From: Chloroflexia bacterium SDU3-3
GTDB taxonomy: Bacteria > Chloroflexota > Chloroflexia > Chloroflexales > Roseiflexaceae
NCBI GenBank assembly: GCA_009268125.1
Contig: WBOU01000002.1
Span: forward strand, 186,001 to 250,000
DNA: 64,000 nt
Reading direction: 5' to 3'
Made by a program: the position numbers and the translations under genes. Below, piece by piece: positions 1,404 through 16,448 of this stretch (positions are counted from its first letter, which is position 1; every line of letters begins with the position of its first letter). The notes beneath the pieces are model-generated. The model had not been told where the DNA came from, did not search any database, and saw only the letters and a program-made list of their open reading frames with translations.

Positions 1404-2639
1404 TCAGCGCGGCATCACGTGGGTCAGCGAGCCAGGGGCCATGTGCTCGACCACCAGCATAGTGATATCGTCGTACTGCTCGGCGTTGCCGATGTGCAGC
1501 GCCAGTTGGGTGGAGATCTGGGTCACGAGGTCGGCTGCCGACACGCCAGTGTGCAGCATCTCGATCAGGCGCTGCTCGCCAAACAGCCGCCGCTCGGGGT
1601 TGCGGGCGTCGGTGACGCCGTCGGTATAGGTGAAGAGAATGTCGCCTGGGTCGAGCTGGATGCGCTGGATGTCGAAGGTGGTGTTAGGGATGATGCCGAC
1701 CGCAGGGCCGGTGGGCGTAAGGCGGTGCTTGATGCCCTGATCGCCGACGATCAGCGCGGGCACGTGGCCACCATTCACATAGAACAGGCTTCCGTCGGAT
1801 GGGTTCAGTATACCAAAAAAGAGCGTCGCAAAATAGCCCTTGTCGCCGTGGTTGTCGATCACATAGTTGTTCACCAGGTTAAAGGTGTCGTAGAGCACCT
1901 GCGACTCCTGATCGCCTGGGTAGGGCGGCTGATCGGGGCTGGCAGGGATCTGCTGCTGGGCGGCGGCGCGGAACAGGCTGCGGAACAGCGCCATGAACAG
2001 GGCCGCGCCCACGCCCTTGTCGCAGACATCGCCGATGATCAGGCAGATATACTGATCGTGCATGGTGGTAAACACATCGTAGAGATCGCCGCCGACCTCG
2101 CGGGCGGGCTTGTAGAAATCGGCGATCTGCCAGGTGGGGAAGTCGGGCAGGTCGCGCGGCAGGAAGTCGGACTGGATGTCCTGCCCGATCTGCAGATCGT
2201 GCTCGATCTTGATCAGCAGCACCTCTTTCTCGGGGTTGACGCGGGTGGGGTTGTGCATCAGGCCGTACTGCAGGCACATGCGGATGCGGGCCTGCTGCAG
2301 CATGGGGCTCATCGAGGGGTGGATGTGGTCGTAGGCACCCAGCGACAGGCACTCCTCCAGGTGGGGGCTGTTGGAATGCTCGGTGATCATCATCACGGGT
2401 ATGGCGTGAAGGTCGGGGTCGCTCTTGATCGCCGTCAGCAGGTCGCTGCCGCGCATGTCGGGCAGATCGAGCGCGATCAGCACTAGGTCGCTCGGCTGCT
2501 TTCGGAGCATGCTCAGGGCCTGCTGAGCCTCGGGGATGCAGATCATGGTGTAGCCCGAGGATTCCAGGTGGGCGCGCAGCGAGTCGTAGATCTCGAAGTG
2601 GTGGTGTACCACCAGCAGATAGCCAAATTCACCAGGCAT
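1404..2639 (-). CDS. RsbU-like PP2C (SpoIIE-type) phosphatase with degenerate receiver domain
   Basis: 411 residues. An N-terminal receiver-like domain (about 5-125) leads through a short linker to a SpoIIE-type PP2C phosphatase (about 165-405). The phosphatase keeps the metal-binding pattern: EVGGD near 181, GDVCDKGVGAALFMA near 203, TDGVTDA and YDDITML. Such enzymes dephosphorylate STAS anti-anti-sigma proteins. The receiver has lost its chemistry: the acidic pair after VV is His12-His13, the phospho-Asp position is Ala56 and the conserved Lys position is His107, while Thr86 remains. It therefore probably senses through binding, not phosphorylation. ATG 2639 was chosen because GGAGG sits five bases upstream; a start at 2678 has no such site. 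It lies 91 bp downstream of the RsbW-like gene. Confidence 0.9.
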   Translation of the reverse strand: MPGEFGYLLVVHHHFEIYDSLRAHLESSGYTMICIPEAQQALSMLRKQPSDLVLIALDLPDMRGSDLLTAIKSDPDLHAIPVMMITEHSNSPHLEECLSLGAYDHIHPSMSPMLQQARIRMCLQYGLMHNPTRVNPEKEVLLIKIEHDLQIGQDIQSDFLPRDLPDFPTWQIADFYKPAREVGGDLYDVFTTMHDQYICLIIGDVCDKGVGAALFMALFRSLFRAAAQQQIPASPDQPPYPGDQESQVLYDTFNLVNNYVIDNHGDKGYFATLFFGILNPSDGSLFYVNGGHVPALIVGDQGIKHRLTPTGPAVGIIPNTTFDIQRIQLDPGDILFTYTDGVTDARNPERRLFGEQRLIEMLHTGVSAADLVTQISTQLALHIGNAEQYDDITMLVVEHMAPGSLTHVMPR

Positions 2640-2730
2640 GAGGGCCTCCAAATACGGCACGGACGCGCAGCGTGGCAATGCCCATGCTGCTGCGCGCCCA
2701 TGGCACGAACGTGCGGTATGGAATGGTTGC

Positions 2731-3153
2731 TCAGGTGGCCACCGGGGCCGAGACAGTGAACGAGTTGTAGTTGTGGCTGCCCGCGCGGCGGTAGGCGAAC
2801 GTGTCGATCGCGTGCCGCGCTAGGTAGATGCCCAGCCCACCAGGGGTGCGGGTGTGCAGGGCCTGGGCCAGGCTGGTGGGGGGCGGCTGCGCCAGCGGGT
2901 CGAACGGCACCCCCGTGTCGTCGAGCACGATGGTGAGGCTGCCGCCATTCAGCGACGCCGACACCGTGATCGAGCCATCGATCTGGTGCTCGCCATAGCC
3001 GTGGGTGATGATATTGGTGGCGATCTCGTCGACCGCCAGCCGCAGCCGATACGAGGTCTTCGCATCGAGCATGGCCACGCGCGCGGCCTCCTGCACATAG
3101 GCCGCGATGGCGGAGAGCGAGTCGAGATTGCCAGCGACGGTGAGCGGTTGCAT
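2731..3153 (-). CDS. RsbW-like anti-sigma factor / serine protein kinase (HATPase_c_2)
   Basis: 140 residues forming one GHKL ATPase domain. The N box is RLRLAVDEIATNIITHGYG (about 37-55), the G1 box DDTGVPFDP and the G2 loop GGLGIYLARH. In partner switching these proteins bind a sigma factor or other target and phosphorylate the STAS antagonist on serine. Two STAS genes and a PP2C phosphatase lie in the same strand series, so a full switch is present except for the final target: no sigma factor gene is in the window. The length matches the short SpoIIAB/RsbW class. Confidence 0.9.
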   Translation of the reverse strand: MQPLTVAGNLDSLSAIAAYVQEAARVAMLDAKTSYRLRLAVDEIATNIITHGYGEHQIDGSITVSASLNGGSLTIVLDDTGVPFDPLAQPPPTSLAQALHTRTPGGLGIYLARHAIDTFAYRRAGSHNYNSFTVSAPVAT

Positions 3154-3317: not shown

Positions 3318-3319
3318 CG

Positions 3320-3667
3320 CTAGGCCGCCTCGCGCTGCTCGATCTGCTCGGGGATGTACTGGTCGAGCAAGATCACGCTGTGCTGCACGCCGGTCATTGT
3401 GATCGCCTCCAGCACCAGTTCCTGCGTGCCCACCAGGTAGACATCCACGTGCGGCCCCATCTTCTGCTTCAGGAAGACCAGCTCGCGGATGCCCGCGCTG
3501 GACATGTAGGTCAGTTCGTTCATCAGCAGCACGATCCGCCGCGCGCGGTGCTGCTCGGCCTCCTCCACCAGGGTGCGGAAGCGCGGGGTCACGCTGGCGT
3601 CGAGCTCGCCCGCGAGCGAGATGCGGGCGACCCCATCGGTAAGCTCAAGGTTTGCAACGAAGGCCAT
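3320..3667 (-). CDS. STAS-domain anti-sigma factor antagonist (RsbV/SpoIIAA-like)
   Basis: 115 residues covering one STAS domain. The phosphorylatable serine lies in the motif LTYMSSAGIREL (about residues 53-64). The unphosphorylated form of such proteins binds an RsbW-type kinase and frees its target; phosphorylation ends the interaction. The gene begins 24 bp after glgX ends and is followed by a hairpin and then the RsbW-like gene. It and the STAS protein at 5757-6173 bracket glgX, an unusual arrangement. AAAGGAAC precedes the ATG. Confidence 0.9.
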   Translation of the reverse strand: MAFVANLELTDGVARISLAGELDASVTPRFRTLVEEAEQHRARRIVLLMNELTYMSSAGIRELVFLKQKMGPHVDVYLVGTQELVLEAITMTGVQHSVILLDQYIPEQIEQREAA

Positions 3668-3691
3668 GGCTGTTCCTTTCTGATCGGAGAT

Positions 3692-5824
3692 CTACTGGCC
3701 AATAAGGATGACGATCGAGCGCCCACCCACCAGGATGCTGCGCTGATCGGGAAGAAGCGGCTCGTCGCCGGGCATCGAGCAGTCGCCGGGCGACTCGGCC
3801 CCGGTGTTGGCGAACACCGACCACATGCGCCCCGCTGGCAGCGTCGGGATCTCGAAGCTGAGGGCATCCCAGTACATGTTGATCGCCACGTAGATGTTGC
3901 TGTCGCTGGCGGTACCGCCCTTGGCGTGCTTGCCGCAGAGCATGAAGGCCAGCACGCGGCTGCCATCCGACCAGTCGGCGTTCCAGGCCTGGGTGCCGTG
4001 CCATGTGATGTCGGCGAAGCCGCTGCCCATGTAGTCGGTGTTGCGAAAGTGCTGGTGGCTGCGTAGCGCCGGGTGGGCGCGGCGGAAGTGGATGCAGGCG
4101 CGGGCGAAGCGCAGCAGCTCGGCGTTCGACTCGACCATCGACCAGTCGAGCCAGTTCAGCTCGGAGTCGTGGCAGTAGGTGTTGTTGTTGCCCTGCTGGG
4201 TGCGCCCCAGCTCGTCGCCCATCTGGATCATGGGCACGCCCTGGCTCACCAGCAGCAGCGCCAGCGCGTTCTTGATCTGCCGCCGCCGCAGGGCCAGCAC
4301 GCCCGGGTCGTCGGTCGGCCCCTCCCAGCCGCAGTTCCAGCTGTTGTTGTCGTCGCCGCCGTCGCGGTTGCCCTCGCCGTTGGCGTCGTTGTGCTTCTGG
4401 TTGTACGACACCAGGTCGGCCAGGGTGAAGCCATCGTGGCAGGTGAAGAAGTTGACCGAGGCGGTGGGGCCGCGCCAGGCGTAGATGTCGGGCGAGCCCT
4501 GCACGCGCTGGCTTACCTCGCCCACCAGCCCGGCGTCGCCCTTCAGGAAGCGGCGCATGGCGTCGCGGTACTTGCCGTTCCACTCGGCCCAGCGCCCGTA
4601 GGATGGGAAGGTGCCCACCTGGTAGAGCCCGCCCGCATCCCATGCCTCGGCGATCAGCTTGCAGGTGCCCAGCACAGGGTCGTAGGCCAGCGACTCAAGC
4701 AGCGGCGGGTTCGAGAGCGGCGCGCCCGATGGCGCGCGGCCAAGGATGGCCGCCAGGTCGAAGCGGAAGCCGTCGATATGATATTCCGACACCCAGTAGC
4801 GCAGGCAGTCGCACACCAGATCGCGCACGATCGGGTTGTTGCAGTTGAGCGTGTTCCCGGTGCCGCTGAAGTTGTAGTAGTAGCCCTCGGGCGTGAGCAT
4901 ATAGTAGGTCTGGTTGTCGATCCCACGGAACGAGATCATCGGGCCGTGCTCGTTGCCCTCGGCGGTGTGGTTGAACACCACATCGAGGATGACCTCGATG
5001 CCGTTGCGGTGCAGCTCCTTCACCAGCGTCTTCAGCTCGTCGGCCTGCATGCCCAGCCGCGCGGTGGCGGCGTAGCCCGCCTTGGGCGCGAAGAAGCCGA
5101 CCGTGCTATAGCCCCAGTAGTTCAGCAGGGTCTCGCCGGTGGCGGGGTTGGGCCTGCTGTTCTCGTGCTCGTCGAACTCGAAGATCGGCAGCAGCTCGAC
5201 GCAGTTCACGCCCAGCTGGCGCAGGTAGGGGATCTTCTCGCGCAGCGCCGCGAAGGTGCCTGGGTGGCGGCTGCCCGAGGACGGATGGCGGGTGAAGCCG
5301 CGCACGTGCATCTCGTAGATGATCAGATCCTCCATCGGGATGCGCAGCGGCGTGTCCGACTCCCAGTCAAAATCATCGTAGATCAGGAAGCTGCGGTGCT
5401 GGAAGGCGTTGTCCCAGTCGGGCGGCTGGCCCCAGGTGTCGCGCCCGCTCACCCCCTTGGCGTAGGGGTCGAGCAAGATCTTGCTCGCGTCGAAGCGGTG
5501 GCCGCTTGAGGGGTCGTAAGGCCCCTCAAGCCGAAAGCCGTACTCGATCGTCTCGATGTCCAGGTCGAACACGATCATGGTGAACACGTCGCCGATGCGG
5601 AACTCGTGGGGGAACGGGATCTCGATCATGGGCTGCGGATCGCCGCGCTGGAACAGCACTAGGGTGCACTCGGTGGCGTGCCGCGAGTAGATCGCGAAGT
5701 TCACGCCGCTGGGCACCAGCGTGGCCCCGAACGGCAGCGGGCGGCCAGCGCGCAGCTTAAACGGACCGTAGCTGTGGGTCGGGTGCGAATCGATCCGCTC
5801 TCGGGCTGTTGTTACGGTAGTCAT
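3692..5824 (-). CDS. glgX: Glycogen debranching enzyme GlgX (isoamylase-type GH13)
   Basis: 710 residues. It cleaves alpha-1,6 branches of glycogen or limit dextrin in the cytoplasm. An N-terminal CBM48-type domain (GRPLPFGATLVPSGVNFAIYSRHA, about 28-51) precedes the GH13 barrel. Visible landmarks are LDVVFNHTAEG, the nucleophile Asp356 in DGFRFDLA, the acid/base Glu393 in IAEAWDAGG and the third carboxylate Asp464 in CHDGFTLADLVSYNQKHND. Length and order match GlgX/TreX. ATG 5824 has GAGG six bases upstream, and this start lies 68 bp inside the preceding STAS gene, so translation is probably coupled. No other glycogen gene lies next to it except the UDP-glucose pyrophosphorylase 20 kb away. 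Confidence 0.93.
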   Translation of the reverse strand: MTTVTTARERIDSHPTHSYGPFKLRAGRPLPFGATLVPSGVNFAIYSRHATECTLVLFQRGDPQPMIEIPFPHEFRIGDVFTMIVFDLDIETIEYGFRLEGPYDPSSGHRFDASKILLDPYAKGVSGRDTWGQPPDWDNAFQHRSFLIYDDFDWESDTPLRIPMEDLIIYEMHVRGFTRHPSSGSRHPGTFAALREKIPYLRQLGVNCVELLPIFEFDEHENSRPNPATGETLLNYWGYSTVGFFAPKAGYAATARLGMQADELKTLVKELHRNGIEVILDVVFNHTAEGNEHGPMISFRGIDNQTYYMLTPEGYYYNFSGTGNTLNCNNPIVRDLVCDCLRYWVSEYHIDGFRFDLAAILGRAPSGAPLSNPPLLESLAYDPVLGTCKLIAEAWDAGGLYQVGTFPSYGRWAEWNGKYRDAMRRFLKGDAGLVGEVSQRVQGSPDIYAWRGPTASVNFFTCHDGFTLADLVSYNQKHNDANGEGNRDGGDDNNSWNCGWEGPTDDPGVLALRRRQIKNALALLLVSQGVPMIQMGDELGRTQQGNNNTYCHDSELNWLDWSMVESNAELLRFARACIHFRRAHPALRSHQHFRNTDYMGSGFADITWHGTQAWNADWSDGSRVLAFMLCGKHAKGGTASDSNIYVAINMYWDALSFEIPTLPAGRMWSVFANTGAESPGDCSMPGDEPLLPDQRSILVGGRSIVILIGQ

Positions 5825-6173
5825 CCTGTGCCTCGAAGTTCTTGTGTAGCGCCACAAGCCCCAGGTCAAGCGTCTCCTCGATCTGGAGGTAGGCGAGGAA
5901 GCCAGTCTCGGCGAGGGTGTCGATCAGATCGGAGCTAAGCCCCACCATCACGATCCGCCCATTCAGCCCGGCGATCTGCCGGTTGAGCATCAGCAGCATG
6001 CGCAGGCCCGCGCTGGAGAGGTAGTTGACATGCTGCATGTCCAGCGCGATCTGGCAGCCCGGCGCGCACGCCTGGGCCAGCTGGGCCTGGATGATCGGCG
6101 CGGTCTTGCCATCCAGCTCGCCGTTGATCGTCACCACGGTCGCCGCATCAATTGTCTGAATAAAGATCTGCAT
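5757..6173 (-). CDS. STAS-domain anti-sigma factor antagonist, overlapping glgX
   Basis: 138 residues. The STAS core spans about 1-110, with the putative phosphoserine in VNYLSSAGLRMLL (about 49-61). A 25-residue basic, proline-containing tail (DDYRNNSPRADRFAPDPQ) is encoded entirely within the first codons of glgX in another frame. Such tails are absent from minimal SpoIIAA proteins, so it may exist only because the frame runs on into glgX. The gene lies 39 bp after the AGE-epimerase gene. Role: substrate of an RsbW-like kinase and a PP2C phosphatase, probably those at 2731-3153 and 1404-2639, though this pairing is inferred from proximity. Confidence 0.88.
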   Translation of the reverse strand: MQIFIQTIDAATVVTINGELDGKTAPIIQAQLAQACAPGCQIALDMQHVNYLSSAGLRMLLMLNRQIAGLNGRIVMVGLSSDLIDTLAETGFLAYLQIEETLDLGLVALHKNFEAQDDYRNNSPRADRFAPDPQLRSV

Positions 6174-6212
6174 GGCATATCTCTTCTGTGGTAGTGGGGC
6201 CAGGGCGTCGCG

Positions 6213-8036
6213 CTAGGCTACGGGTGCGATCCGCACCCGCACGCGCAGCGCCCGGTCGCTATCGGGTAGGGTCACGGTCAGCGCGGCGGGGTCGAAGTTG
6301 GCGTAGGGCTTGTCTTCGACCCACACCTGCTCCAGGCGAACGCTGCCAGCGGGCAGGATGTCGGGCTGGACGCGCAGGATCTGATCTTTGAAGCCGTTTG
6401 GCTGGGGCTTGAAGTGCAGATCGAGCGGCTGCTTGCTGATCAGCAGGTTGATGTACACCGCCGAGAGGTAGCACAGCTCGGTGGAGTGGTAGGCGCTCAT
6501 CGAGTGGTTGCCCTTCAGCCGCTCGTTGCCCAGCAGGTAGGGCATGCCGTTGGCCAGCACGTTGAAGTACACGCCGCCGTCGTCGTGATCGAGGAAGAAG
6601 GCGTTGTAGAACGATGCGGCCTCGCGGGCGTGGCGCAGCGACTCGGCGTCCTTCTGGTTGCCGTGCAGGATGAGGTAGGCCAGGATGGCCTGCTCCTGCT
6701 GCCACCAGGCCTTGCGGTCGTGCCAGACAAAGTGGGGCGCGGCCACATCGGCCTCGACGCTGCGCTCGACCACGTCGTACCAGCCGCCGCGCTGGCGGTC
6801 GCTGCCGAAGCCCGGCATGATCTGGCCGATCTTGCTGGCCAGCGCCGCGTACTCCTGCTTGGGCTTGAGGCTGTTCATGCGCATCAGGTTCCACGCGATC
6901 TTGAGGTTGTGGCCCACCACGGCGCGGTTCTGCTGCCAGCCCCAGGTGCTGTCGTGGCTCCAGTCCTCGAAGAAGCGCTCCTGCACGAACGGGCTATGGT
7001 CGTAGTCGGGGAAGTGCTCGACGATGGTGTCGAAGGTGCGCTCCAGCATCTCGGCGTACTGCGGCTCGCCGGTGGCCAGCCACAGGTTGATCAGGTAGGC
7101 CGGGGCGTGGTCGCCCACCGAGTTCCAGTTCTTGCGCGCGCGGTTGTGGGCCAGCGACTCGGCGCGCGGGTCGAGCGAGAGCGGGTCGATGTGCGAGAAG
7201 TAGCCGCCCTTCTCGCGGTCGATGTAGAAGCGGTCGAACAGCTTCACGGTGTGCTCGGCGTCCGAGAGGATGCGCGGGTCGCCGGTGATCCGGTAGGTCT
7301 GGATGGGGCCAGCCAGCGCGTAGATCTGCTCGTACATGGGGATGGAGTCGAAGTCGTCGCCGAACTCGGATGTCAGCAGCTTCTGCTCGCGCTCGCCCTG
7401 CACCTGGATGCCGTGGTACCAGTAGATCAGGTCTTCGTCGGGGTCGAAGAAGCGCATGTGCTCGCGCAGGTACTCGGTGCCGCGCTCGGCGGCCTCCAGG
7501 AAGCGCTCGTGGCCGGTGAGCATGTAGGCCGAGGCCATGCCGTAGACCATGCGCGAGATCGTGTCGGTCTCCTGCAGGTAGTCGCCGCGCTTCTCGCCCG
7601 CCAGGTGCAGGAAGGTGCGGTAGTTGCGGTAGTCGATCTCGCGCTGCGGGTAGCCGAACTGCCATTTCAGGTACGAGTCGGCGATCGAGTGGATCTGGTT
7701 GACCCACCACTGCGGCTCTTCGTGCCGATACTGCCCGACCTCCTCGCCGGGGAAGACCAGCGTCTTGGCCTCGAAGCGCAGCCCCGCGCCAGCCGGGGCG
7801 AAGATGCCGTACACGTGGGCATACTGGCCATCATCCAGCTTCTCGGCCACGCGCGCCGACACGTCCGTCACTGGCTCCTCAAGGTTCTCCATGATCCGGG
7901 AGAAGGTGGTGCCCGTCAGGTCGACGTGGAAGGTGCGCTGATCCGATGTGGTCAGGTCGAAGCTCATCTCGCGTCGGTCGAAGTTGCTGATGTAGCCCGA
8001 GATCGTGTCCGAGAAGGTGAACCGCAGATCATTCAT
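6213..8036 (-). CDS. AGE-family (N-acylglucosamine 2-epimerase-like) protein
   Basis: 607 residues. An N-terminal beta-rich stretch of about 110 residues precedes an (alpha/alpha)6-barrel of the AGE/cellobiose-epimerase superfamily. Evidence includes aromatic- and His-rich barrel motifs such as KNWNSVGDHAPAYLINLW, GHNLKIAWNLMR, GGWYDVVERS and HDRKAWWQQEQAILAYLI, whose His/Trp/Glu residues lie where the family has its active site. Members interconvert C2 epimers of sugars or isomerise aldoses and ketoses. The extra N-terminal domain and length over 600 set it apart from the usual 400-residue AGE enzymes, so the substrate is unknown. The gene follows a DJ-1/PfpI gene and precedes STAS-glgX, suggesting sugar metabolism under the same control. 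Confidence 0.8.
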   Translation of the reverse strand: MNDLRFTFSDTISGYISNFDRREMSFDLTTSDQRTFHVDLTGTTFSRIMENLEEPVTDVSARVAEKLDDGQYAHVYGIFAPAGAGLRFEAKTLVFPGEEVGQYRHEEPQWWVNQIHSIADSYLKWQFGYPQREIDYRNYRTFLHLAGEKRGDYLQETDTISRMVYGMASAYMLTGHERFLEAAERGTEYLREHMRFFDPDEDLIYWYHGIQVQGEREQKLLTSEFGDDFDSIPMYEQIYALAGPIQTYRITGDPRILSDAEHTVKLFDRFYIDREKGGYFSHIDPLSLDPRAESLAHNRARKNWNSVGDHAPAYLINLWLATGEPQYAEMLERTFDTIVEHFPDYDHSPFVQERFFEDWSHDSTWGWQQNRAVVGHNLKIAWNLMRMNSLKPKQEYAALASKIGQIMPGFGSDRQRGGWYDVVERSVEADVAAPHFVWHDRKAWWQQEQAILAYLILHGNQKDAESLRHAREAASFYNAFFLDHDDGGVYFNVLANGMPYLLGNERLKGNHSMSAYHSTELCYLSAVYINLLISKQPLDLHFKPQPNGFKDQILRVQPDILPAGSVRLEQVWVEDKPYANFDPAALTVTLPDSDRALRVRVRIAPVA

Positions 8037-8111
8037 CTCGCTTCTCCATGGGCGCGCGGCATCTGGCGCGCGGCCCGGTATAGGCGGCTATGCGTCGCAG
8101 GAAGGGCGCGT

Positions 8112-8687
8112 CTATCGGGTCTGGGCGTAGAGCATGTCGAGGATCTGCCGGGCCAGCAGGTGGCAGTGCGCCCCGGTGCGCGCGGTGACAAGGTCGCCGT
8201 CGACCACGAGGTCGCGGTCGGTGTAGCGCGCGCCCATGTTCAGGGCGTCGCCGATCAGGTTGTTGTGCACCGTCACCGGACGGTCGCGCACCAGCTCGGG
8301 GGTGCGCGCCACCAGCCACATGCCGTGGCAGATGATGCCCTTCACCACATCCGGCTGGGCGAAGGCCCGCCGCAGGAACGCGGTGGCCGGTGGGATGGCG
8401 CGCGGATCCTCGGTGTAGCGCAGCCGGTCGGCCACCATGCCCGAGGGCACGATGATCGCGGCGTAGCTACGCAGCTGATCGTCGTCGATCGACTCGAAGC
8501 TCTCGCCGCACACCAGCGGGGCGCGGTACTCGTGGCCGTGGAAGGTCTGCTCGGGCTGGCCCCACAGGCGGGTCAGGAAGTGCAGCTCGGCCCCCTCCTC
8601 GGCAAAGCGGTGCCGATAGTAGAAGATCTCATCTTCGTAGAAGTCGCTCTCGATCAGGACGCCGATCTTTTTTCCATCAAGGCGCAT
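8112..8687 (-). CDS. DJ-1/PfpI family protein
   Basis: 191 residues with the flavodoxin-like DJ-1/PfpI fold. It opens KKIGVLIESDFYEDEI, where the acidic residue of the triad sits, and has the nucleophile elbow GIICHGMWLVA with its Cys near residue 130. The family includes proteases, glyoxalases, deglycases and isonitrile hydratase-like enzymes; which one applies cannot be told. AGGAG precedes the ATG. It lies 54 bp after the TPP enzyme gene and 75 bp before the AGE gene, all in the same direction. A second, longer DJ-1 gene begins the series at 11361. Confidence 0.88.
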   Translation of the reverse strand: MRLDGKKIGVLIESDFYEDEIFYYRHRFAEEGAELHFLTRLWGQPEQTFHGHEYRAPLVCGESFESIDDDQLRSYAAIIVPSGMVADRLRYTEDPRAIPPATAFLRRAFAQPDVVKGIICHGMWLVARTPELVRDRPVTVHNNLIGDALNMGARYTDRDLVVDGDLVTARTGAHCHLLARQILDMLYAQTR

Positions 8688-8741
8688 GGTCGGTCTCCTT
8701 CTGCGCGGTGCCGCGGGCGCGCCGCGCTGCTCTGGCGGGCG

Positions 8742-10460
8742 CTAGATCGCCAGCGGGGCGTGGTGGGCCGGGTCGATCCGCTCGGGGTGCACATCGCCGG
8801 CCAGCACCAGGTCGATCAGCACTGGGCCGCCCGCCAGCCGGGCCTGCTGAATAGCGGGGCCGATCTCGTCGGGGCTGCTCACCCGCAGCGCGCCGACGCC
8901 CAGGGCGCGCGCCAGATCGACGAAGCTGATCGGCGGGAACGAGAGGTCGAAGCTAAGCGGGTACTCGTGCGCGGGGATCTCGCGCTCGGCCCAGTAGGTG
9001 TCGATGTTCGACTGCAGCAGCCGGTACGAGCCGTTGTTGCACACCACAAAGGTGACATCCACGTTGTAGCGGGCCGCTGTCCACAGCGCCTGGATGGTGT
9101 ACATGCTGCCGCCGTCGCCGCTGAAGCCGATCACGGGGCGGTCGGGGTTGGCCAACTTGGCCCCGATCGCGCCGGGGAAGCCGACCCCCAGCGAGCCGCC
9201 CCTGGTTAGGAAGTAGCTGCCGGTCTCTGCGGGCTGGGCGTAGCGGCCGATCGGCGGCGAGCTGGTGAGCGCCTCATCGAAGATCAGGGTGTCGGCGGGC
9301 AGACTGGCCGCCATGTCGGCCATGAAGCGCGACATGGGCATGGGCAGTCTGTCGCGCTGGGCTTGGTCGTGGGCGATGGCCTGGTCGCGGCGCTGCGCGG
9401 TGGCGCTGGCGATCTGCTCGGCCCGCCGCTGCGCACCCTCGCGCTGGGCTGGCGACATGGCGGCCTCGATCTGGTCGGCCAGCAAGCCCAGCCCTACCTT
9501 GGGGTCGCCCAGCATGGCGATGTCGACCGGGTGGTTTTTGGCGATCTCGTAGGCGTTGAGGTCGATGTGGATGACCTTCGCCCCTGGCGCGAAGATCGGC
9601 CCCAGCTCGGGGAATACCTCGGGCAACATGTAGGTGCCGCAGATCAGGATGGCGTCGCCCTTGGATGTGATCGGCCTGCTGGCCGCGCCGAACATGTGCC
9701 CTGTCATGCCCTGGTAGAGCGGGTGGCGGTAGCTGATGTTCACCTCGCCCGCATCCGACTCCCAGACCTCGGCCCCCACGAGCTCGGCCAGCCGCTCCAG
9801 CTCGGCGCGCGCACCCGAGTAGGCCACGCCATCGCCCACAAAGAACATGGGGCGCTGGGCGGATGCCAGGGCCTGCGCGGCCTCGCGGAGGAGGCCGGGG
9901 TCGGGCGCGACCCGCGTGGATGGGATGACGGTGGGGATGACCGCCTCGGTGTTCTCCTCGTCGAGCACATCCTGCGGCAGGCAGACGTACACCGGCCCCA
10001 TCGGCGGCGTCGCGGCGATCTTGATCGCCCTGCGCAGCACCCTCAGCACCGAGGATGCATCGTGCACCATGGTCGCCCACTTGGTCACCGGCTCGGCCAT
10101 GGCCACCAGGTCGGCGGCCATCTGCGCATCCATGGCCTGGTAGCGAATGCCCGCGTCGCCGCCGATCACCACCAGCGGCGCGTGGCCGCGCTTGGCCTGG
10201 TAGAGCGCCCCGATGGCGTTGCCCAGCCCCGGCGAGCTGTGGATCTGCACCAGGGCGGGCCGCTGGCGCGCGCGGGCGTACCCGTCGGCGATCATCACCG
10301 CCACCGTCTCCTGCAGCGTGAGGATGTACTTCATCTCGGGGTAGCTGCCCAGCGCATCCAGAAAGCCCTGCTCGACCGTGCCTGGGTTGCCGAACATATG
10401 GTCAATGCCGTCGGCCAGGAACTGCTCGATGATCGCGGCGTGCCCATTTCGTTTGCTCAT
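8742..10460 (-). CDS. Benzoylformate decarboxylase-like thiamine-diphosphate enzyme
   Basis: 572 residues with three domains: PYR (about 1-170), central Rossmann (about 190-330) and PP (about 375-540). The cofactor-activating Glu is in LTLQETVAVMIADGYAR (Glu51). An active-site-type His lies in QIHSSPGLGNAIGAL (His73), as in benzoylformate decarboxylase. The ThDP/Mg motif runs from GDGGSMYTIQALW to VVCNNGSY. The sequence is closer to 2-keto-acid decarboxylases than to acetolactate synthase, and the FGNPG serine position of the family reads Thr. The substrate is probably an aromatic or branched 2-oxo acid, but this is inference. ATG 10460 with GGAAAG upstream is preferred to a start at 10532. 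The gene is flanked by two DJ-1 genes. Confidence 0.85.
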   Translation of the reverse strand: MSKRNGHAAIIEQFLADGIDHMFGNPGTVEQGFLDALGSYPEMKYILTLQETVAVMIADGYARARQRPALVQIHSSPGLGNAIGALYQAKRGHAPLVVIGGDAGIRYQAMDAQMAADLVAMAEPVTKWATMVHDASSVLRVLRRAIKIAATPPMGPVYVCLPQDVLDEENTEAVIPTVIPSTRVAPDPGLLREAAQALASAQRPMFFVGDGVAYSGARAELERLAELVGAEVWESDAGEVNISYRHPLYQGMTGHMFGAASRPITSKGDAILICGTYMLPEVFPELGPIFAPGAKVIHIDLNAYEIAKNHPVDIAMLGDPKVGLGLLADQIEAAMSPAQREGAQRRAEQIASATAQRRDQAIAHDQAQRDRLPMPMSRFMADMAASLPADTLIFDEALTSSPPIGRYAQPAETGSYFLTRGGSLGVGFPGAIGAKLANPDRPVIGFSGDGGSMYTIQALWTAARYNVDVTFVVCNNGSYRLLQSNIDTYWAEREIPAHEYPLSFDLSFPPISFVDLARALGVGALRVSSPDEIGPAIQQARLAGGPVLIDLVLAGDVHPERIDPAHHAPLAI

Positions 10461-10539
10461 AGGTCTTTCCTTGGCATGGTGTGTGCGCCAAACGGTCGGG
10501 TGGTGGTGCAGGGTCTGTGCGGCCTGCACCACCGCGTGC

Positions 10540-11361
10540 CTACCAGCCCCAGCGGCGCAGGCCGCCCTCCAGCACCTCGATGATCTTCTCGCCCACTAGG
10601 CGCGAGTCCTGGGTCGAGCGCCCGGTGAGGAAGGGGTAGTCGAGGATGGTCGACTGGGTGCGCCCAACGCCGCCGTGGTAGCGGCCATCCGGTCCGGTCG
10701 CGTCGCGCAGGATCAGCTCCAGCGGGAAGAAGGGCGGGCCGACGTTGATGTCGGTGTTGAGGAAGCCGGTGCCATCCTTGTAGTCGTACTCAAGCGCGTG
10801 GCCGGTGACATGCTTGCCCCGGATGATGCTGCTACGCTCCACCCAGTCGCGGGCGAAGGCCAGGCAGGCCACGCCGTAGCACTCGGCGGCGATCAGCTTG
10901 TCCTGGGCGTGGAAGCCGAGGATGACGTCGTGCAGGCGCTGGTTGTTCACCATGTCGATCAGCGGCCCGCTGCCGCCCACCAGCAGCAGCGCGTCGTACT
11001 CGGCCAGATCTTGCCAGGCCTTGTCGCGCAGGCTGTAGTAGCGCTCCAGCTCGTGCCCGAAGTTGCGCGCGTTGAAGTAGGGGCGCTCGGGAAACCACGC
11101 GGCCAGGTTGACCGGCTTCTCCAGCCGAGGCGACGCGTCGATCTCACGGGTCTTGCGGGCGTAGTACTCGTCGGTCACCACCTTGTCGAGCGGCGGGTCG
11201 AGGTAGCCTGGCTCCATGCTGGGCGGCAATGCGTGCGGCCTGCGCCCGCGCGCGGTCATGAAGGTGCTCTCGTAGCCGTGGGCGTCCAGCACCTCAAGCG
11301 GGCCGACCAGCTCTTCCCCCCAGAATCCCCACTCGGAGAGCATGATAAGTACCTTGGGCAT
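10540..11361 (-). CDS. DJ-1/PfpI (class I glutamine amidotransferase-like) protein
   Basis: 273 residues, longer than the second DJ-1 protein because of an insertion after residue 35. It opens PKVLIMLSEWGFWGEELVGPLEVL. The nucleophile elbow reads LIAAECYGVACLAFA, with Cys near residue 157. Similar proteins are annotated as chaperone/glyoxalase III or amidotransferase-like; the reaction is not identifiable. AGGAGG lies four to five bases upstream of the ATG, which rules out the longer frame that starts near 11499. It is the first gene of the long minus-strand series. Its promoter carries two CTAAG repeats 11 bp apart that overlap the stop codon of the BTAD regulator gene. Confidence 0.86.
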   Translation of the reverse strand: MPKVLIMLSEWGFWGEELVGPLEVLDAHGYESTFMTARGRRPHALPPSMEPGYLDPPLDKVVTDEYYARKTREIDASPRLEKPVNLAAWFPERPYFNARNFGHELERYYSLRDKAWQDLAEYDALLLVGGSGPLIDMVNNQRLHDVILGFHAQDKLIAAECYGVACLAFARDWVERSSIIRGKHVTGHALEYDYKDGTGFLNTDINVGPPFFPLELILRDATGPDGRYHGGVGRTQSTILDYPFLTGRSTQDSRLVGEKIIEVLEGGLRRWGW

Positions 11362-11403
11362 AGGTCCTCCTGTTGTGATATGGCCTGGTGAGCGGTAATT
11401 ACC

Positions 11404-11436
11404 AGTGTAGCGAGGCCCCCTTAGATAGCACTTAGG
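11404..11436 (-). promoter_or_regulatory. SARP-type operator/promoter of the DJ-1/TPP/AGE/STAS/glgX series
   Basis: Read on the minus strand, CCTAAG (11436-11431) and CTAAG (11424-11420) repeat with an 11-bp period. Ten bases later comes a -10-like TACACT (11409-11404). The same arrangement and almost the same bases occur at 13695-13727. SARP/BTAD regulators are known to bind heptamer direct repeats at 11-bp spacing located about 8 bp before the -10. The first repeat overlaps the TAA stop of the BTAD gene. A start site near 11397 would give a 36-base leader to the DJ-1 gene. Confidence 0.65.
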
Positions 11437-12694
11437 CGGCGGCCAGCGCCAGCCCCTTGATCGACTCGTAGAGCTGGATGGTCTCGGGCAGCGGCTCAAG
11501 CCCCAGCTCGCTGCTGAGCGACTGCACGCAGCGCTCGTACTGCTGCAGCGCCTGCGAGCGCTGGCCGAGCGCGATATAGCAGTGCATCAGCCGCTGGTGG
11601 ATGTCCTCGCGGCTGCTGTCCTGCTCCAGCAGCCGCGCGCACTGGTCTATCGCCGCGCCGATGTTGCCGACCATCACATACAGGTAGCCTAGGCGCTCAA
11701 GCGCGCCCAGGTGCAGGTCGCGCAGCTGGGTCCGGCTGGCCTCGGCCCAGCTCTCGTAGCGGCTCTCGGGCAGAAATTCGCCACGGTAGATGGCCATCGC
11801 CTCAAGGTAGAGCGCGATCGCCTGCTGCACATGCTGCTGGCGCTCGGCGTGGCGCGCGCGTGTGATCAGCGCGCGGAAGCTGTCGGTGTCTATCCACACT
11901 GGCTGCTCGGGCGCGAACCCGTAGCGGCCCTCGCTGTGGGCGATCGGCAGGCCGTGCTCGCCGCAGGCGCTGGCCAGGCTGCGCCGCAGCGTGTGCATGG
12001 TGTAGTGGAAGCGGTTGCGGCTGATCTCGGGGTCGACCTCGGGCCAGAAGGTTTCGAGCAGCTCGTCGCAGTGCAGCATCTGGCCCTGGTGCGTGCAGAG
12101 ATACCGCAGCAGCGCGCCGCTGCGCCCGGTGGGCAGCCCGGCTATCGGCCTGCCGCCGATGCAGATGCCGAACCCGCCGAACGTGCTGATCCGGATCTCG
12201 GGCTGGGCGCGGGTGGGCAGCTGGCCGCCCTGCCAGCGCGCCGACTGGCGCTCGCTGGTGCGCACATGCCAGCACATGTCGGCGTGGGGCAGCTGGTTGA
12301 GCTGGATGTACTCCATCAGGCCCTCGTGCAGGCTGCAGAGCGACCGGATGATGATCCAAGGCGCGCTGGATGTGTCGGCGAAGAGCGCGCAGAGCGACTC
12401 GCTGCTGGTGCAGATCCCGGCCACCACCGGCTGCCCGAGCCGCATGGCGATACGGCTGGCCCGGCCAAACTGCTCGCGCGCGGCGCTGGCCTCGCCCGCG
12501 AAGGCGGTGCAGACCCCGATCTGCGCGGCGCTCCAGAGCACGGGCCAGCTGCTCTGGCTCGCGCCGACGTACTGGGTGGCGGCGGTCTGCAGCATCAGGC
12601 TCTCGCTGTAGTTCTCGAACTGCCAGTGCTGCGCGGCGGCCCGCATGGCCGAGCACCACGAGTGCTCAGCGGGCATGTCATGTCGAGCTTCCAT
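11432..12694 (-). CDS. SARP-like transcriptional regulator (TPR-like N-terminus, winged helix, BTAD)
   Basis: 420 residues. Residues 1-160 are helical and resemble the tail of a TPR array. An OmpR-type winged helix follows (about 165-265: IRISTFGGFGICIGGRPIAG ... LLRYLCTHQGQMLHCDELLETFWP ... LHTLRRSL-like helix). Residues 270-415 are a bacterial transcriptional activation domain (BTAD: DTDSFRALITRA ... YRGEFLPES ... LGLEPLPET). Such proteins activate neighbouring operons through 11-bp direct repeats, and repeats of that kind stand at both ends of this gene's neighbourhood. No clear ribosome binding site precedes ATG 12694; ATG 12676 is an alternative. It lies 162 bp downstream of the DUF5317 gene and could belong to the same transcript. 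Confidence 0.85.
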   Translation of the reverse strand: MEARHDMPAEHSWCSAMRAAAQHWQFENYSESLMLQTAATQYVGASQSSWPVLWSAAQIGVCTAFAGEASAAREQFGRASRIAMRLGQPVVAGICTSSESLCALFADTSSAPWIIIRSLCSLHEGLMEYIQLNQLPHADMCWHVRTSERQSARWQGGQLPTRAQPEIRISTFGGFGICIGGRPIAGLPTGRSGALLRYLCTHQGQMLHCDELLETFWPEVDPEISRNRFHYTMHTLRRSLASACGEHGLPIAHSEGRYGFAPEQPVWIDTDSFRALITRARHAERQQHVQQAIALYLEAMAIYRGEFLPESRYESWAEASRTQLRDLHLGALERLGYLYVMVGNIGAAIDQCARLLEQDSSREDIHQRLMHCYIALGQRSQALQQYERCVQSLSSELGLEPLPETIQLYESIKGLALAAA

Positions 12695-12856
12695 GGGTGT
12701 ATTTCACTTTGGTAGAGAGCGGATAGCCAGGTGGTGCCACAGAGCACGTCTTTCCTGGGGCCGAGGTGCGGGAAAGCTGGCTCTACGGCATTGTAGAGGG
12801 GTCATCGTCGAGGGAGAGCGACATCGCTGGGGTTCAGTTCTGCGGAGAAAGGGGCG

Positions 12857-13390
12857 CTAGGCGGTGCGGATGAGCGCTGTTTGGCGAATGGCCAGCCTGC
12901 GCGATATGCAGGCCCAGTAGATCACAGCGGCGGCGATCAGCAGGTCGCCCGGGCTTCCGACAAGGGTGAGCGATGGCAGCTGCAGCGGCATCCAGTCGCC
13001 GATCCACTGCCAGACATCCGCCGTCCCGATCACGTCTTTGCTATGGGCCAGCAGTGCGGGTGCGCCCAGATGCGGCAGCGAGGCTACCATATGCGGGGCC
13101 AGCGGCATCATGCCCTGGCTGTGCAGCATGGCCAGCACGTTCAGGCCAGCGCCGAACATCAGCAGCCGTGCGCCGGGGATCTGGCGGTTGGCCACGGCCC
13201 AGATCACCACCAGGCCCGCGCCGACCGCCGGTGCGTAGGCGATCCGGTGGTCGAGCAGCATCGGGATCTGGATGGCACCAGCGCCGATCAGCAGGGGCAT
13301 GCCAGTGATCTTGAGCGGGCGGTGCTGCCAGGGCGCTGCGACAATCACCACGATGGCGAGGAACGTGACCGCTAGGGCGATGATCTGCAT
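12857..13390 (-). CDS. DUF5317-like integral membrane protein
   Basis: 177 residues with five or six hydrophobic segments. The stretch GLNVLAMLHSQGMMPL and the later PSLTLVGSPGDLLIAAAVIYW match the pattern of DUF5317 proteins (a G-MP loop and an SxGD loop between helices), whose function is unknown. The start codon follows the stop of a 52-residue secreted-peptide gene by two bases, so the two are almost certainly cotranscribed. They lie behind a promoter with three 11-bp-spaced repeats. The pairing suggests that the membrane protein handles or senses the peptide; this is inference. Confidence 0.65.
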   Translation of the reverse strand: MQIIALAVTFLAIVVIVAAPWQHRPLKITGMPLLIGAGAIQIPMLLDHRIAYAPAVGAGLVVIWAVANRQIPGARLLMFGAGLNVLAMLHSQGMMPLAPHMVASLPHLGAPALLAHSKDVIGTADVWQWIGDWMPLQLPSLTLVGSPGDLLIAAAVIYWACISRRLAIRQTALIRTA

Positions 13391-13392
13391 GC

Positions 13393-13551
13393 CTAGCCTG
13401 CCACCGTCGGGGTCAGCGAGGGGGTCGGGGCTGGCGCGAAGCCAGGGTCGATGCCAGGGTCGCCCAGCGGCGCGGCGCTGCCCAGCACCAGCATGCCCAG
13501 AACCGCCACCACCGCCACGAACTGCGCCATCACGATCATTGCTTTCTTCAT
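13393..13551 (-). CDS. Small secreted or membrane-anchored peptide (52 aa)
   Basis: A 52-residue frame: MKKAMIVMAQFVAVVAVLGM..., a basic start and a long hydrophobic core up to about residue 25, then LGSAA and a Pro/Thr-rich tail (FAPAPTPSLTPTVAG). It looks like a Sec signal peptide with a mature peptide of about 24-26 residues, or a single-pass anchor. AGGAGAG stands five to six bases before the ATG. It lies two bases ahead of the DUF5317 gene and about 65 bases after a SARP-type promoter. No homologue is recognised by eye; a role as peptide signal or as a small subunit of the DUF5317 protein is speculative. Confidence 0.65.
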   Translation of the reverse strand: MKKAMIVMAQFVAVVAVLGMLVLGSAAPLGDPGIDPGFAPAPTPSLTPTVAG

Positions 13552-13621
13552 GGTTGCTCTCCTCATTTCTTAGGCCGATTCCAGCGGGTAGGTGCTGCGT
13601 TGTTGCTGCGGGTATGGCTTA

Positions 13622-13668
13622 AGCATAGCGATGCGCTGTGACACGGCTGTGAACATGCTGTGACATGC
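13622..13668 (-). promoter_or_regulatory. Three-repeat SARP-type operator/promoter for the peptide-DUF5317 genes
   Basis: On the minus strand the element (G/T)TCACAG occurs three times with exactly 11-bp period (plus-strand CTGTGA at 13636, 13647 and 13658). The last repeat is followed by 8 bp and then TATGCT (13627-13622), a good -10 box. This is the textbook SARP layout. The repeat sequence differs from the CTAAG repeats of the two neighbouring operators, so a second regulator, perhaps the one at 17869-21030, may read it. Confidence 0.7.
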
Positions 13669-13694
13669 CCGATCATTTTCCGCAGTCAGCCTAA

Positions 13695-13727
13695 CCTAAG
13701 TGGGATCTAAGCACGGGGCGCTACGAT
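13695..13727 (+). promoter_or_regulatory. SARP-type operator/promoter of the EthD operon
   Basis: CCTAAG at 13695 and CTAAG at 13707 repeat with 11-bp period, followed ten bases later by TACGAT (13722-13727). It is nearly identical in sequence and spacing to the operator at 11404-11436 (shared CCTAAGTG, ATCTAAG and GCTAC). A start near 13734 would leave a leader of about 49 bases before the EthD gene. The two shared operators point in opposite directions and flank the BTAD regulator and DUF5317 genes. Confidence 0.7.
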
Positions 13728-13782
13728 GCCCGCGACGACATGACGACAGCCGCTACATCAGACTGCAGGCAGGAGAAGCGAC

Positions 13783-14478
13783 ATGATCCACCAGTTTATC
13801 TTTGCCCACCCCAAGCCGGGAATGAGCGAGGCCGACTTTCAGGATTACTGGCTGAATGTCCACGCGGTGCAGTACGCCAGCAAGATCCCGCAGATCCGGC
13901 GCTACCAGATCGACACGCGGGTGCCCTTTGGCCCCGAGCCAGCCGACCCGCTGTTCAGCGGTGTGGCCGAGATCTGGCTGGCCAACGAGGAAGAGCAGCT
14001 GGCCTCGCTGCAGACCAAGGAGTTTCTAGAGGGCGCGCGGCTCGATGAGCCGCGCTGGGCGGCGTTCTGGCGCACTGTAGGGCTGGACACCACCACCCAC
14101 GTGCTGAAGGAGGGGCCGCCGCTCGCCCGCGAGTCGCAGATGCTGAAGGTGTTTACCCTGGTGAAGCGCAAGGCTGGCAGCGAGCTAGAGGACTTCCGCC
14201 GCTATGGGCTGGAGGAGCACGCGGCCAAGGTGCTGGCCATCCCCGGCATCCAGCGCTACTACCAGTGCTATGCCCGCGATGGCCTCTACACCCTCGGCGA
14301 GACCCTGCTCGATGGCATCTCGCTGATGTGGTTTGAAAATAGCGAGGCGCTGGCTGCCGCCGCCCTGTCGCCCGAGTGGCAGCAGGCCCAGGATGATCTG
14401 AAGACCTTCGTCGAGCCGCGCTACATCCAGCGCTTTGTCACCACCGAGCACTGGATTATTGGCCCCGAGAGCCGCTAG
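13783..14478 (+). CDS. Tandem EthD-domain protein
   Basis: 231 residues made of two EthD (dimeric alpha-beta barrel) repeats, about 1-105 and 115-220. The first opens MIHQFIFAHPKPGMSEADFQDYWLNVHA and the second MLKVFTLVKRKAGSELEDFRRYGLEEHA. Both keep the helix-1 W/Y and the HA of the family. EthD proteins help in degradation of ethers and in oxidation or cyclisation of polyketides, and most are single-domain, so a fused pair can act as a pseudo-dimer. AGGAGAAG precedes the ATG. It is the first gene of a plus-strand series (EthD, NTF2-like, ankyrin, isomerase-like, lipoprotein). Confidence 0.82.
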   Translation: MIHQFIFAHPKPGMSEADFQDYWLNVHAVQYASKIPQIRRYQIDTRVPFGPEPADPLFSGVAEIWLANEEEQLASLQTKEFLEGARLDEPRWAAFWRTVGLDTTTHVLKEGPPLARESQMLKVFTLVKRKAGSELEDFRRYGLEEHAAKVLAIPGIQRYYQCYARDGLYTLGETLLDGISLMWFENSEALAAAALSPEWQQAQDDLKTFVEPRYIQRFVTTEHWIIGPESR

Positions 14479-14511
14479 GCTTGGGCGCACCCCACAGCCA
14501 GAAAGGGCAAG

Positions 14512-14943
14512 ATGATGACCGAGCAAGCCTACGAGGATACCTACGCGGTGGCGAAGGGTTGGTTCGATGCCCTGACCCACGGCCAGTTCGACACGGCGCT
14601 GGGCCTGCTCGACCCCGAGGTCGAGTGGATCAACTACACGGTCGTGCCCGGCATGAACGATGTGATGCCGTGGATCGGCACCTACCACGGCCCCCAGCAG
14701 GTGCTGGAGACCCTGCAGATCTTCACCGGCCTGGTCAGCGTCCAGCGCGAGGAGCTAGTGCGCCTGCTGGTGCAGGGCGATGAGGCGGCGGGCGTGATCC
14801 ACGAGCAGTCGGTGGTGAAGGCCAACGGCCAGCCGTTCGAGATCGAGTTCATCCAGTGGCTGACGATCCGCAACGGCAAGATCGTGCGCTGGAAATCCTA
14901 CACCGACCCGTCGCCGATTATCGTGGCGCTGCGCGGCGCGTGA
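14512..14943 (+). CDS. SnoaL/NTF2-like protein (ketosteroid-isomerase fold)
   Basis: 143 residues: an N-terminal helix pair (YEDTYAVAKGWFDALTHGQFDTALGLLDPEVEWINY) and the curved sheet typical of SnoaL-like cyclases/isomerases (QPFEIEFIQWLTIRNGKIVRWKSYTDPSPI). The pocket carboxylates of delta-5-3-ketosteroid isomerase cannot be assigned by eye. It starts 33 bases after the EthD gene and ends 20 bases before the ankyrin gene, so it belongs to the same operon. ATG 14515 is an equally good start. Function could be a small-molecule isomerase or cyclase, or just ligand binding. Confidence 0.8.
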   Translation: MMTEQAYEDTYAVAKGWFDALTHGQFDTALGLLDPEVEWINYTVVPGMNDVMPWIGTYHGPQQVLETLQIFTGLVSVQREELVRLLVQGDEAAGVIHEQSVVKANGQPFEIEFIQWLTIRNGKIVRWKSYTDPSPIIVALRGA

Positions 14944-14963
14944 TCGCCAGAGGGAGAACCGCC

Positions 14964-16016
14964 ATGGAACAACAGCTGATTCAAGCGGTGCGGGCGCATA
15001 GCCTCGCCGATGTGCAGGCGCTCACCCAGGCCGGGGCAAGCCCCAGCGCCCGCGACGCCGAGAGCGGCCTGACCGCGCTGATGCTGGCCGCATGCCAGGC
15101 CGACACCGCGATCGCGCTGCACCTCATCCAGGCCGGTGCCGATGTGTTTGCGGTGGACAGCCGCGCGGGCGCGTCGGCGCTGCACAAGGCCTGCCAGGGC
15201 GGCAGCATCGAGATCGTGCGGGCGCTGGTGGGCGCGGGGGCCTTTGTCGACCAGGTGGCGGTGACCACCGGCCACACCCCGCTGATGGACGCGCTCTGGT
15301 TCAAGTGGCCCGAGATCGTGGGCTTTCTGCTCGACAGCGGCGCGACGCTGCACCTCAGCACGCACTACGGCTTCTCGCTGCTTGAGCACTTCCAGTACGA
15401 GCTGAATGTGACCGTGATCGGTAAGGAGCGGCTGTTCCAGGCCGATGCGCTGCTGAAACAGCGCCAGCAGGATGACCAGCAGAAGATCGATCGGCAGCAG
15501 CTGATGGCGGCGGTGGTCGCCGATGATCTGGCCGAGGTGCAGCGGCTGCTGGCCGCAGGCGCGGCGGTCGACGAGCGCTACCCGCTAGTGAATAGCTTTA
15601 ACGACGGCCACACCCCCCTGCTGGTGGCCGCGCGCGATGGCCGCACCGCGATTGTGGCCGCGCTGCTGTGGGCTGGGGCCGATGTGAACGCCACCGAGCC
15701 GACCTTTGGCGCGGTGCCGCTGCACAAGGCCGTCTACAACGGCCACGCCGAGATCACCCGCATGCTGGTGCGCCAGCCGGGCGTGCTGCTCGACTTCCAA
15801 GGGGCCACCAATGGCTACACACCCCTGCACGACTCGCTCTGGCACGGCTTCGACGAGTGCGCGACGGCGCTGGTCACGGCGGGCGCGCGGCTCGACCTGC
15901 GTGGCCACGACGGCAAGATGCCGCTCGACCTGGCGCGCGAGGTGTTTGGCCCGCAGCACCCGATCGTGTCGCTTATCCGCGCACATGTCGAGCCGCTAGT
16001 CGATATCATGGTGTAG
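14964..16016 (+). CDS. Ankyrin-repeat protein
   Basis: 350 residues without a signal peptide. Seven or eight ankyrin-like repeats occur in two blocks (about 10-150 and 180-330), for example GLTALMLAACQADTAIALHLIQAGADV, ASALHKACQGGSIEIVRALVGAGA, HTPLLVAARDGRTAIVAALLWAGADV and YTPLHDSLWHGFDECATALVTAGA. A lysine/glutamine-rich linker (LLKQRQQDDQQKIDRQQ) divides the blocks and looks like an internal duplication point. Ankyrin proteins bind other proteins, so this may scaffold the EthD, NTF2-like and isomerase-like proteins encoded beside it (inference). GGGAGAACCGCC precedes ATG 14964, which replaces the longer frame from 14856. Confidence 0.85.
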   Translation: MEQQLIQAVRAHSLADVQALTQAGASPSARDAESGLTALMLAACQADTAIALHLIQAGADVFAVDSRAGASALHKACQGGSIEIVRALVGAGAFVDQVAVTTGHTPLMDALWFKWPEIVGFLLDSGATLHLSTHYGFSLLEHFQYELNVTVIGKERLFQADALLKQRQQDDQQKIDRQQLMAAVVADDLAEVQRLLAAGAAVDERYPLVNSFNDGHTPLLVAARDGRTAIVAALLWAGADVNATEPTFGAVPLHKAVYNGHAEITRMLVRQPGVLLDFQGATNGYTPLHDSLWHGFDECATALVTAGARLDLRGHDGKMPLDLAREVFGPQHPIVSLIRAHVEPLVDIMV

Positions 16017-16057
16017 TTAGGGATTACCATCCGACAAGGGAACTAGAGGAGGCCGCT

Positions 16058-16366
16058 ATGCTGTTCTATGTTCAGATGCGCTGGAACCACGAGGGACGCC
16101 TCTCGCTCGACGAGCTGTGGGATGTGGAGAAGAAAGAGACCGAGCACGCCCAGCAGACCATCGACGACCATCTGGTGGTGGGTATCTGGAAGGTTGCGGC
16201 GCAGCGCCGCGTGATCGCGGTGGTGGACATGCCCTCGGCAGAGGAGCTGGACCGCACCGCGCTGGGGCGGCTGCCCATGCGCGAGTACCTGGAGTTCGAG
16301 GTGGTCTGGCCGCTGCGCGACTACCTGGGCTTCGCCAAGGATGTGGATGCCCACTACCGCGTCTAG
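16058..16366 (+). CDS. Muconolactone delta-isomerase-like protein
   Basis: 102 residues. The start MLFYVQMRWNHEGRLSLDELWDVEKKETEHAQQ and the later GIWKVAAQRRVIAVVDMPSAEELDRTALGRLPMREYLEFEVVWPL match the muconolactone isomerase ferredoxin-like fold, which is about 95 residues in known enzymes. Those catalyse a step of the catechol beta-ketoadipate pathway, but no other enzyme of that pathway lies nearby, so a related isomerisation or a structural role is as likely. GAGGAGG lies six bases before the ATG. It follows the ankyrin gene by 41 bp. Confidence 0.72.
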   Translation: MLFYVQMRWNHEGRLSLDELWDVEKKETEHAQQTIDDHLVVGIWKVAAQRRVIAVVDMPSAEELDRTALGRLPMREYLEFEVVWPLRDYLGFAKDVDAHYRV

Positions 16367-16448
16367 AGCTGGTAGCGCCTGCGACATAGCGCACCCCTAT
16401 CGGCGGGCCGGAGATTCGCGCTCCCCCGCCCCGAAGGAGCCGAGCCAT

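Follow-up and report, generated by a model that had tools for sequence, protein, structure and literature searches.

Within the window, i.e., the whole stretch of 64,000 nucleotides (186001-250000 of contig C2) from Chloroflexia bacterium SDU3-3 analysed here, the gene for a SARP-type regulator lies between two similar promoter-like sites, one facing a DJ-1 gene and the other an EthD gene (Table 1). This raises the question of whether the two sets of genes answer to a single regulator, and what they have in common. To our knowledge the study of SARPs has been limited almost wholly to antibiotic clusters of actinomycetes, and no paper on SARP operators in Chloroflexota was found in the literature searched.

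Table 1. Predicted features of the locus (window positions).
Feature	Position	Strand	Remarks
Receiver-SpoIIE phosphatase (response regulator receiver)	1404..2678	-	
HATPase_c_2 (RsbW-like) protein	2731..3153	-	
Second STAS protein	3320..3667	-	
GlgX glycogen debranching enzyme	3692..5824	-	Exceeds NCBIfam cut-off
STAS protein	5757..6173	-	
N-acylglucosamine-2-epimerase-family protein (AGE)	6213..8036	-	
Second DJ-1/PfpI protein (DJ1b)	8112..8687	-	
Thiamine-pyrophosphate enzyme (TPP)	8742..10460	-	Nearest models benzoylformate decarboxylase/acetolactate synthase, below their cut-offs
DJ-1/ThiJ_like protein (DJ1a)	10540..11361	-	First gene of minus arm
Putative operator-promoter 1	11404..11437	-	Faces DJ-1; DRup GCCTAAGTGCT, DRdown ATCTAAGGGGG, gap CCTCGC, -10 TACACT
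SARP-type regulator, 420 aa	11432..12694	-	N-terminal ~160 aa, fold unknown; ODB winged helix ~167-260; BTAD 268-412
DUF5317 gene	12857..13390	-	Between the operators
Small ORF, 52 aa	13393..13551	-	Between the operators
Putative operator-promoter 2	13694..13727	+	Faces EthD; DRup ACCTAAGTGGG, DRdown ATCTAAGCACG, gap GGGCGC, -10 TACGAT
EthD-family protein	13783..14478	+	First gene of plus arm
SnoaL_2-like protein	14512..14943	+	
Ankyrin-repeat protein	14964..16016	+	
Muconolactone delta-isomerase-family (MIase) small protein	16058..16366	+	
Second, large regulator, C-terminal BTAD, 1055 aa	17869..21036	-	Far end of plus arm; alternative binder candidate

Geometry and rarity of the twin sites

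The twin sites are real. Two CTAAG repeats with a period of 11 bp, followed by TACACT or TACGAT, exist exactly as the original prediction had them; the DJ-1-side site (11436-11404, minus strand) reads CCTAAGTGCTATCTAAGGGGGCCTCGCTACACT, the EthD-side site (13695-13727, plus strand) reads CCTAAGTGGGATCTAAGCACGGGGCGCTACGAT, and CCTAAGTGnnATCTAAG-N8-GCTACnnT is common to both. Set against the AfsR afs box (-40 to -19), the two sites come into register: CTAAG takes up positions 3-7 in every 11-bp repeat, and 8 bases separate the 3' heptamer (CTAAGGG at site 1, CTAAGCA at site 2) from the -10 (TACACT and TACGAT, respectively). According to the published work on AfsR, the direct repeats of a SARP site recur every 11 or 22 bp, the one at the 3' end lies 8 bp from the -10 element, and two AfsR protomers occupy -40 to -19 next to each other, in overlap with the -35 element (PMC10936776). 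The two window sites agree with this rule to the base. Their repeats also overlap the -35 position, so that the SARP-type architecture ascribed to them earlier is borne out. Both promoters appear to have a fair -10 and no usable -35; AAGTGG is found 17 bp before the -10 of the EthD site, within the repeats, and on a reading of the sequence only is no good -35. Transcription is predicted to start near 11397 for operator-promoter 1 and near 13734 for operator-promoter 2, ahead of the DJ-1 start at 11361 and the EthD start at 13783.

The sites were said to flank the BTAD gene and to face the DJ-1 and EthD genes, which they do, although the DUF5317 gene and the small ORF that also lie between them had gone unmentioned. 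As had likewise been noted, site 1 overlaps the end of the regulator gene, the stop codon TAA (11434-11432) falling within the upstream CTAAG of DRup. When autoregulation was looked for, no CTAAG repeat was found upstream of the regulator gene. A PHO-box-like triple 11-bp repeat at 13622-13666 on the minus strand (ATGTCACAGCA/TGTTCACAGCC/GTGTCACAGCG, with the words TGTCACAG/GTTCACAG/TGTCACAG, then N6 and TATGCT) faces the 52-aa ORF and DUF5317, back to back with the EthD operator.

The motif is rare. In the whole 6.76-Mb genome the full shared motif, with up to three mismatches allowed, matches these two sites alone, and CTAAG-N6-CTAAG occurs three times, two of the occurrences being the window operators. 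When a following TANNNT was also required, a scan asked for beforehand, the genome returned the two window sites only and 100 dinucleotide shuffles of the window returned none. A generic scan for any 7-mer repeated at 11 bp (6/7 alike) and followed by a -10 found exactly one site in each upstream region, where 0.8% and 0.6% of shuffles gave a match. The identity between the twin sites (24/34) is by itself less striking, i.e., moderately rare, as it was equalled in 9 of 2000 shuffle pairs; the agreement is confined to the repeats and the letters of the promoter core, with differing letters elsewhere. What carries conviction is identity, period, spacing, uniqueness and placement taken together.

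The regulator and other candidate binders

The 420-aa protein encoded between the sites has a BTAD domain (PF03704) at 107.6 bits against a cut-off of 22.1, and directly before it an OmpR-type winged helix that is indicated by a Trans_reg_C match at residues 190-243 (25 bits, just under the cut-off of 26.2), by the structural model and by Foldseek. Built on 18 sequences, the AlphaFold model is confident for the part beyond about residue 165, with pLDDT mostly above 85 in the winged-helix part and low confidence for residues 1-160. The top PDB folds found by Foldseek were EmbR and the AfsR chains of the initiation complexes 8hvr and 8k60, the match to AfsR having a TM of 0.78 by target length. 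The SARP module begins near residue 167 rather than at the N-terminus, which is an architectural variant; the BTAD domain is also C-terminal in some other BTAD proteins of Chloroflexales. The AfsR residues that contact DNA (W74, P79, T88, R92, R94, and K95) were compared in an alignment that is weak in places; the tryptophan, R94 and a basic residue at K95 are kept, while T88 is replaced by Y and R92 by T. The specificity of AfsR can therefore not be transferred to this protein, and the loss of T88 and R92 would fit the differing letters of the repeats, although it proves nothing. Among 60 relatives no close ortholog of the regulator was found (identity at most 38%), and operator and regulator can for this reason not be traced through near relatives.

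The geometry is not restricted to the twin sites. The genome holds 10 BTAD genes, and the sole operator copy with one mismatch, CTAAG-N6-CTAAA-N10-TACGAT at 133621-133652 of contig C7 (L185; in the promoter frame CTCTAAGACTC, TTCTAAAAAAG, CTGTGG and TACGAT), has a SARP-AAA-TPR gene (977 aa) on one side and on the other, transcribed divergently, the acyl-CoA dehydrogenase gene that it faces. With so few BTAD genes, less than 1% of the genome is as near to one as this copy is. At two mismatches 15 matches were obtained compared to 36 for a reversed-pattern control, and since the control exceeds them, all but the two perfect sites and the one-mismatch site are background. On contig C11 (L179, 5349-5393) three near-perfect tandem 11-bp repeats (CCGTGACGCTG, CCGTGACGCTG and CCGTGACGCCC, followed by CATCGC and TAAGAT) lie between a 309-aa SARP gene and a divergent GH5 cellulase (CBM64) gene, and face the cellulase; this is a classical three-repeat SARP site whose letters are unlike CTAAG. 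When periods of 5-30 were searched in the DNA around the 10 BTAD genes, 11 bp gave five matches and was equalled only by 22 (also five). One of the five is the PHO-like repeat, which leaves four SARP candidates.

The operators could also be SARP-type and be bound by the other BTAD protein, of 1055 aa, or by both proteins. We regard this as improbable. The large protein is encoded where the plus arm ends, its BTAD exceeds the cut-off, and proteins of its fold family would read repeats of this 11-bp geometry too; on the other hand its gene is 4 kb from the nearer operator whereas the 420-aa gene lies between both and overlaps one, its match to the BTAD profile is partial, and the protein scan gave no winged helix over threshold.

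The PHO boxes of the response regulators PhoB and PhoP are likewise built of direct repeats at 11 bp, with the letters TGTCA/GTTCAC, and the domain that reads them is an OmpR-type winged helix. A response regulator of the OmpR/PhoB type as the binder of the twin sites is a still weaker candidate, and an improbable one by a wide measure. The OmpR-type and SARP DNA-binding domains have a common fold, and the triple repeat on the opposite strand of the same intergenic region means that such regulators may act here. However, the CTAAG letters differ from the PHO type, PHO boxes have no link to a SARP gene, whereas the motif is found at two genomic places only, both flanking a SARP gene, with the best near-match adjoining another, and the distance of 8 bp between the 3' repeat and the -10 is the SARP rule (PMC10936776).

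One conserved cluster in two arms

The two operons had been called otherwise unrelated, and this is wrong. Relatives of EthD were searched and the window genes were then run by tblastn against their loci; at an EthD identity of at least about 40% a DJ1a relative (53-61% identity) was also present in 19 of 24 loci, which usually also hold genes for TPP, DJ1b, AGE, a GlgX-type protein, SnoaL, ankyrin or MIase, compared to 0 of 56 loci with weaker EthD matches. The named records come from Alphaproteobacteria (Rhodoplanes, Sphingobium, Roseicyclus), one betaproteobacterium, Desulfarculus, Actinobacteria (e.g., Actinoplanes), Clostridiales and Lachnospiraceae, and several loci (L083, L089, and L093) have DJ1a, TPP, EthD and the remaining genes in an unbroken run on a single strand. 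Judged by this co-occurrence, DJ-1/TPP/DJ-1/AGE/STAS/glgX and EthD/SnoaL/ankyrin/MIase are one cluster that is kept across about five phyla; the view of two unrelated operons was discarded, and the twin operators are best understood as what holds the two halves of a split cluster to a common control. The presence of DJ-1 proteins together with a TPP decarboxylase-like enzyme suggests carbonyl or 2-oxo-acid chemistry. When full texts were searched for these gene names in combination, no paper describing the cluster came up in the literature covered.

The cluster (window 1404-17027; loci L083 and L089-L105) is missing in the other members of the family to which the window belongs and was for that reason probably gained horizontally. 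The genes around GlgX, i.e., STAS, STAS, RsbW-like HATPase and receiver-SpoIIE phosphatase (1404-6173, minus strand), resemble a partner-switch module. As the minus arm ends in these genes, partner switching may be one input to the system, which is a lead only.

In the three species of a sister genus (g21) DJ1a/TPP is divergent from a small ORF with AGE/STAS/GlgX, and a BTAD-AAA protein of 717 aa is encoded near the cluster. The intergenic region between DJ-1 and AGE carries TTAATG-N5-TTAACG-N10-TATAGT toward DJ1a (ATTAATGCTGG, TTTAACGCTCA, CCGAAC and TATAGT), a pattern that proved unique in each of the three genomes when searched, and TGAACG-N5-TTAACG-N9-CATACT toward the other arm (TCTGAACGATC, ACTTAACGGCT, TCGCGC and CATACT). 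The repeats are invariant and the spacers variable across the three species. The promoters of both cluster halves thus seem to have the layout of the window operators in different letters (TTAACG), although the species are close relatives and count as one independent lineage, not three. A further relative, G063, has a BTAD-AAA gene and DJ1a in divergent orientation; no clear 11-bp pair was found at its cluster, and the single TTAACGAT words there were not counted. In G067 the EthD-ankyrin genes stand behind a sigma-70-like promoter, TTGACA-N18-TACAAT, with no 11-bp repeats found upstream of EthD (on an EthD contig of 3.4 kb); no BTAD gene was found in the 8-10 kb or so examined around the DJ-1 cluster. 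The TPP gene of G067 (L075, 9233-10947) is broken into two frames (1-235 and 236-557), perhaps by a frameshift or through an error of sequencing.

The original prediction that the two operons form one regulon is strengthened by the recurrence of the layout at other SARP genes and in the sister genus, and has to be narrowed in view of G067. As G067 keeps the genes and lacks the repeats, an outcome named beforehand as counting against the regulon, the claim is confined to lineages with a cluster-linked SARP, and within the order SARP control of the cluster would be common and not universal. A general-stress sigma factor was considered for the cluster elsewhere; no consistent matches were found to the promoter patterns tested, i.e., the EcfG-type GGAAC-N16-18-CGTT in alphaproteobacteria and the SigB/F-type GTTT-N-GGGTA in actinobacteria. 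That the twin sites arose by chance or by recent duplication and have no regulatory role, to which their only moderately rare identity and the lack of the sites in G067 might point, is very improbable, as the identical letters are restricted to repeats and promoter core, the full motif is unique in the genome to the two sites, and the geometry recurs beside further SARP genes and, in a second genus, at this cluster.

A probable SARP switch outside the actinomycetes

The computed sites are rare and have operator geometry, a geometry that other SARP loci share; the protein folds like EmbR and AfsR, and the cluster is conserved. On these grounds we consider it likely that the twin sites are SARP-type operator-promoters, both most probably bound by the 420-aa regulator, which would co-activate the two arms of the cluster. 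The protein would bind as a side-by-side dimer on the two 11-bp repeats of each site, presumably in response to a trigger signal, and recruit RNA polymerase to promoters with no -35 as AfsR does. Both arms would be switched on at once, DJ-1/TPP/DJ-1/AGE/STAS/GlgX (and perhaps STAS/RsbW/SpoIIE) to the left of the regulator and EthD/SnoaL/ankyrin/MIase to the right, the transcripts extending through each arm. The cluster, contiguous in many other bacteria, is here split around its regulator, and most likely the twin operators keep the halves co-expressed.

The nearest known system is AfsR at the afs box of the Streptomyces afsS promoter (8hvr, 8k60; PMC10936776), which like the window sites has two 11-bp direct repeats at -40 to -19, overlap with the -35, a suboptimal promoter and an ODB-BTAD fold in its activator. 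There the repeats are of CGTTT type, whereas they are CTAAG here; the SARP module of AfsR is N-terminal and followed by NOD/TPR, whereas here it is C-terminal after an extension of 160 aa; and in place of afsS or antibiotic genes the presumed targets here are a metabolic cluster in Chloroflexota. Some Streptomyces SARPs that are encoded within a cluster bind between divergent genes (SanG, PolR, CcaR, ActII-ORF4, and DnrI; reviewed in PMC10972967). They are similar in that the regulator gene lies inside the cluster it is thought to control and that two or three heptamers overlap the -35. Those, however, are antibiotic clusters in actinomycetes, whereas the window cluster carries genes for DJ-1, TPP, AGE, GlgX, EthD and ankyrin proteins, and the part examined contains neither a polyketide nor a peptide synthase. 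The mechanism is ordinary for a SARP and the place, a non-antibiotic cluster in Chloroflexota, is unusual.

Concrete SARP-type operator sequences are now available from one genome, with three examples independent of each other, and from a sister genus, with a pair, and 11-bp repeats with a fixed distance to the -10 can for that reason be used to predict SARP targets in Chloroflexota. As a by-product a conserved cross-phylum cluster of uncharacterised enzymes has been recognised, together with a putative switch by which its function may be tested. It is tempting to speculate, as a possibility that we hold somewhat short of even, that this cluster has repeatedly come under cluster-linked SARPs in Chloroflexales, each with its own letters and the same geometry, and has a role in carbonyl/carbohydrate metabolism or stress and not in antibiotics. 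If true, SARP control outside the actinomycetes would serve carbonyl/carbohydrate or stress metabolism rather than antibiotic production.
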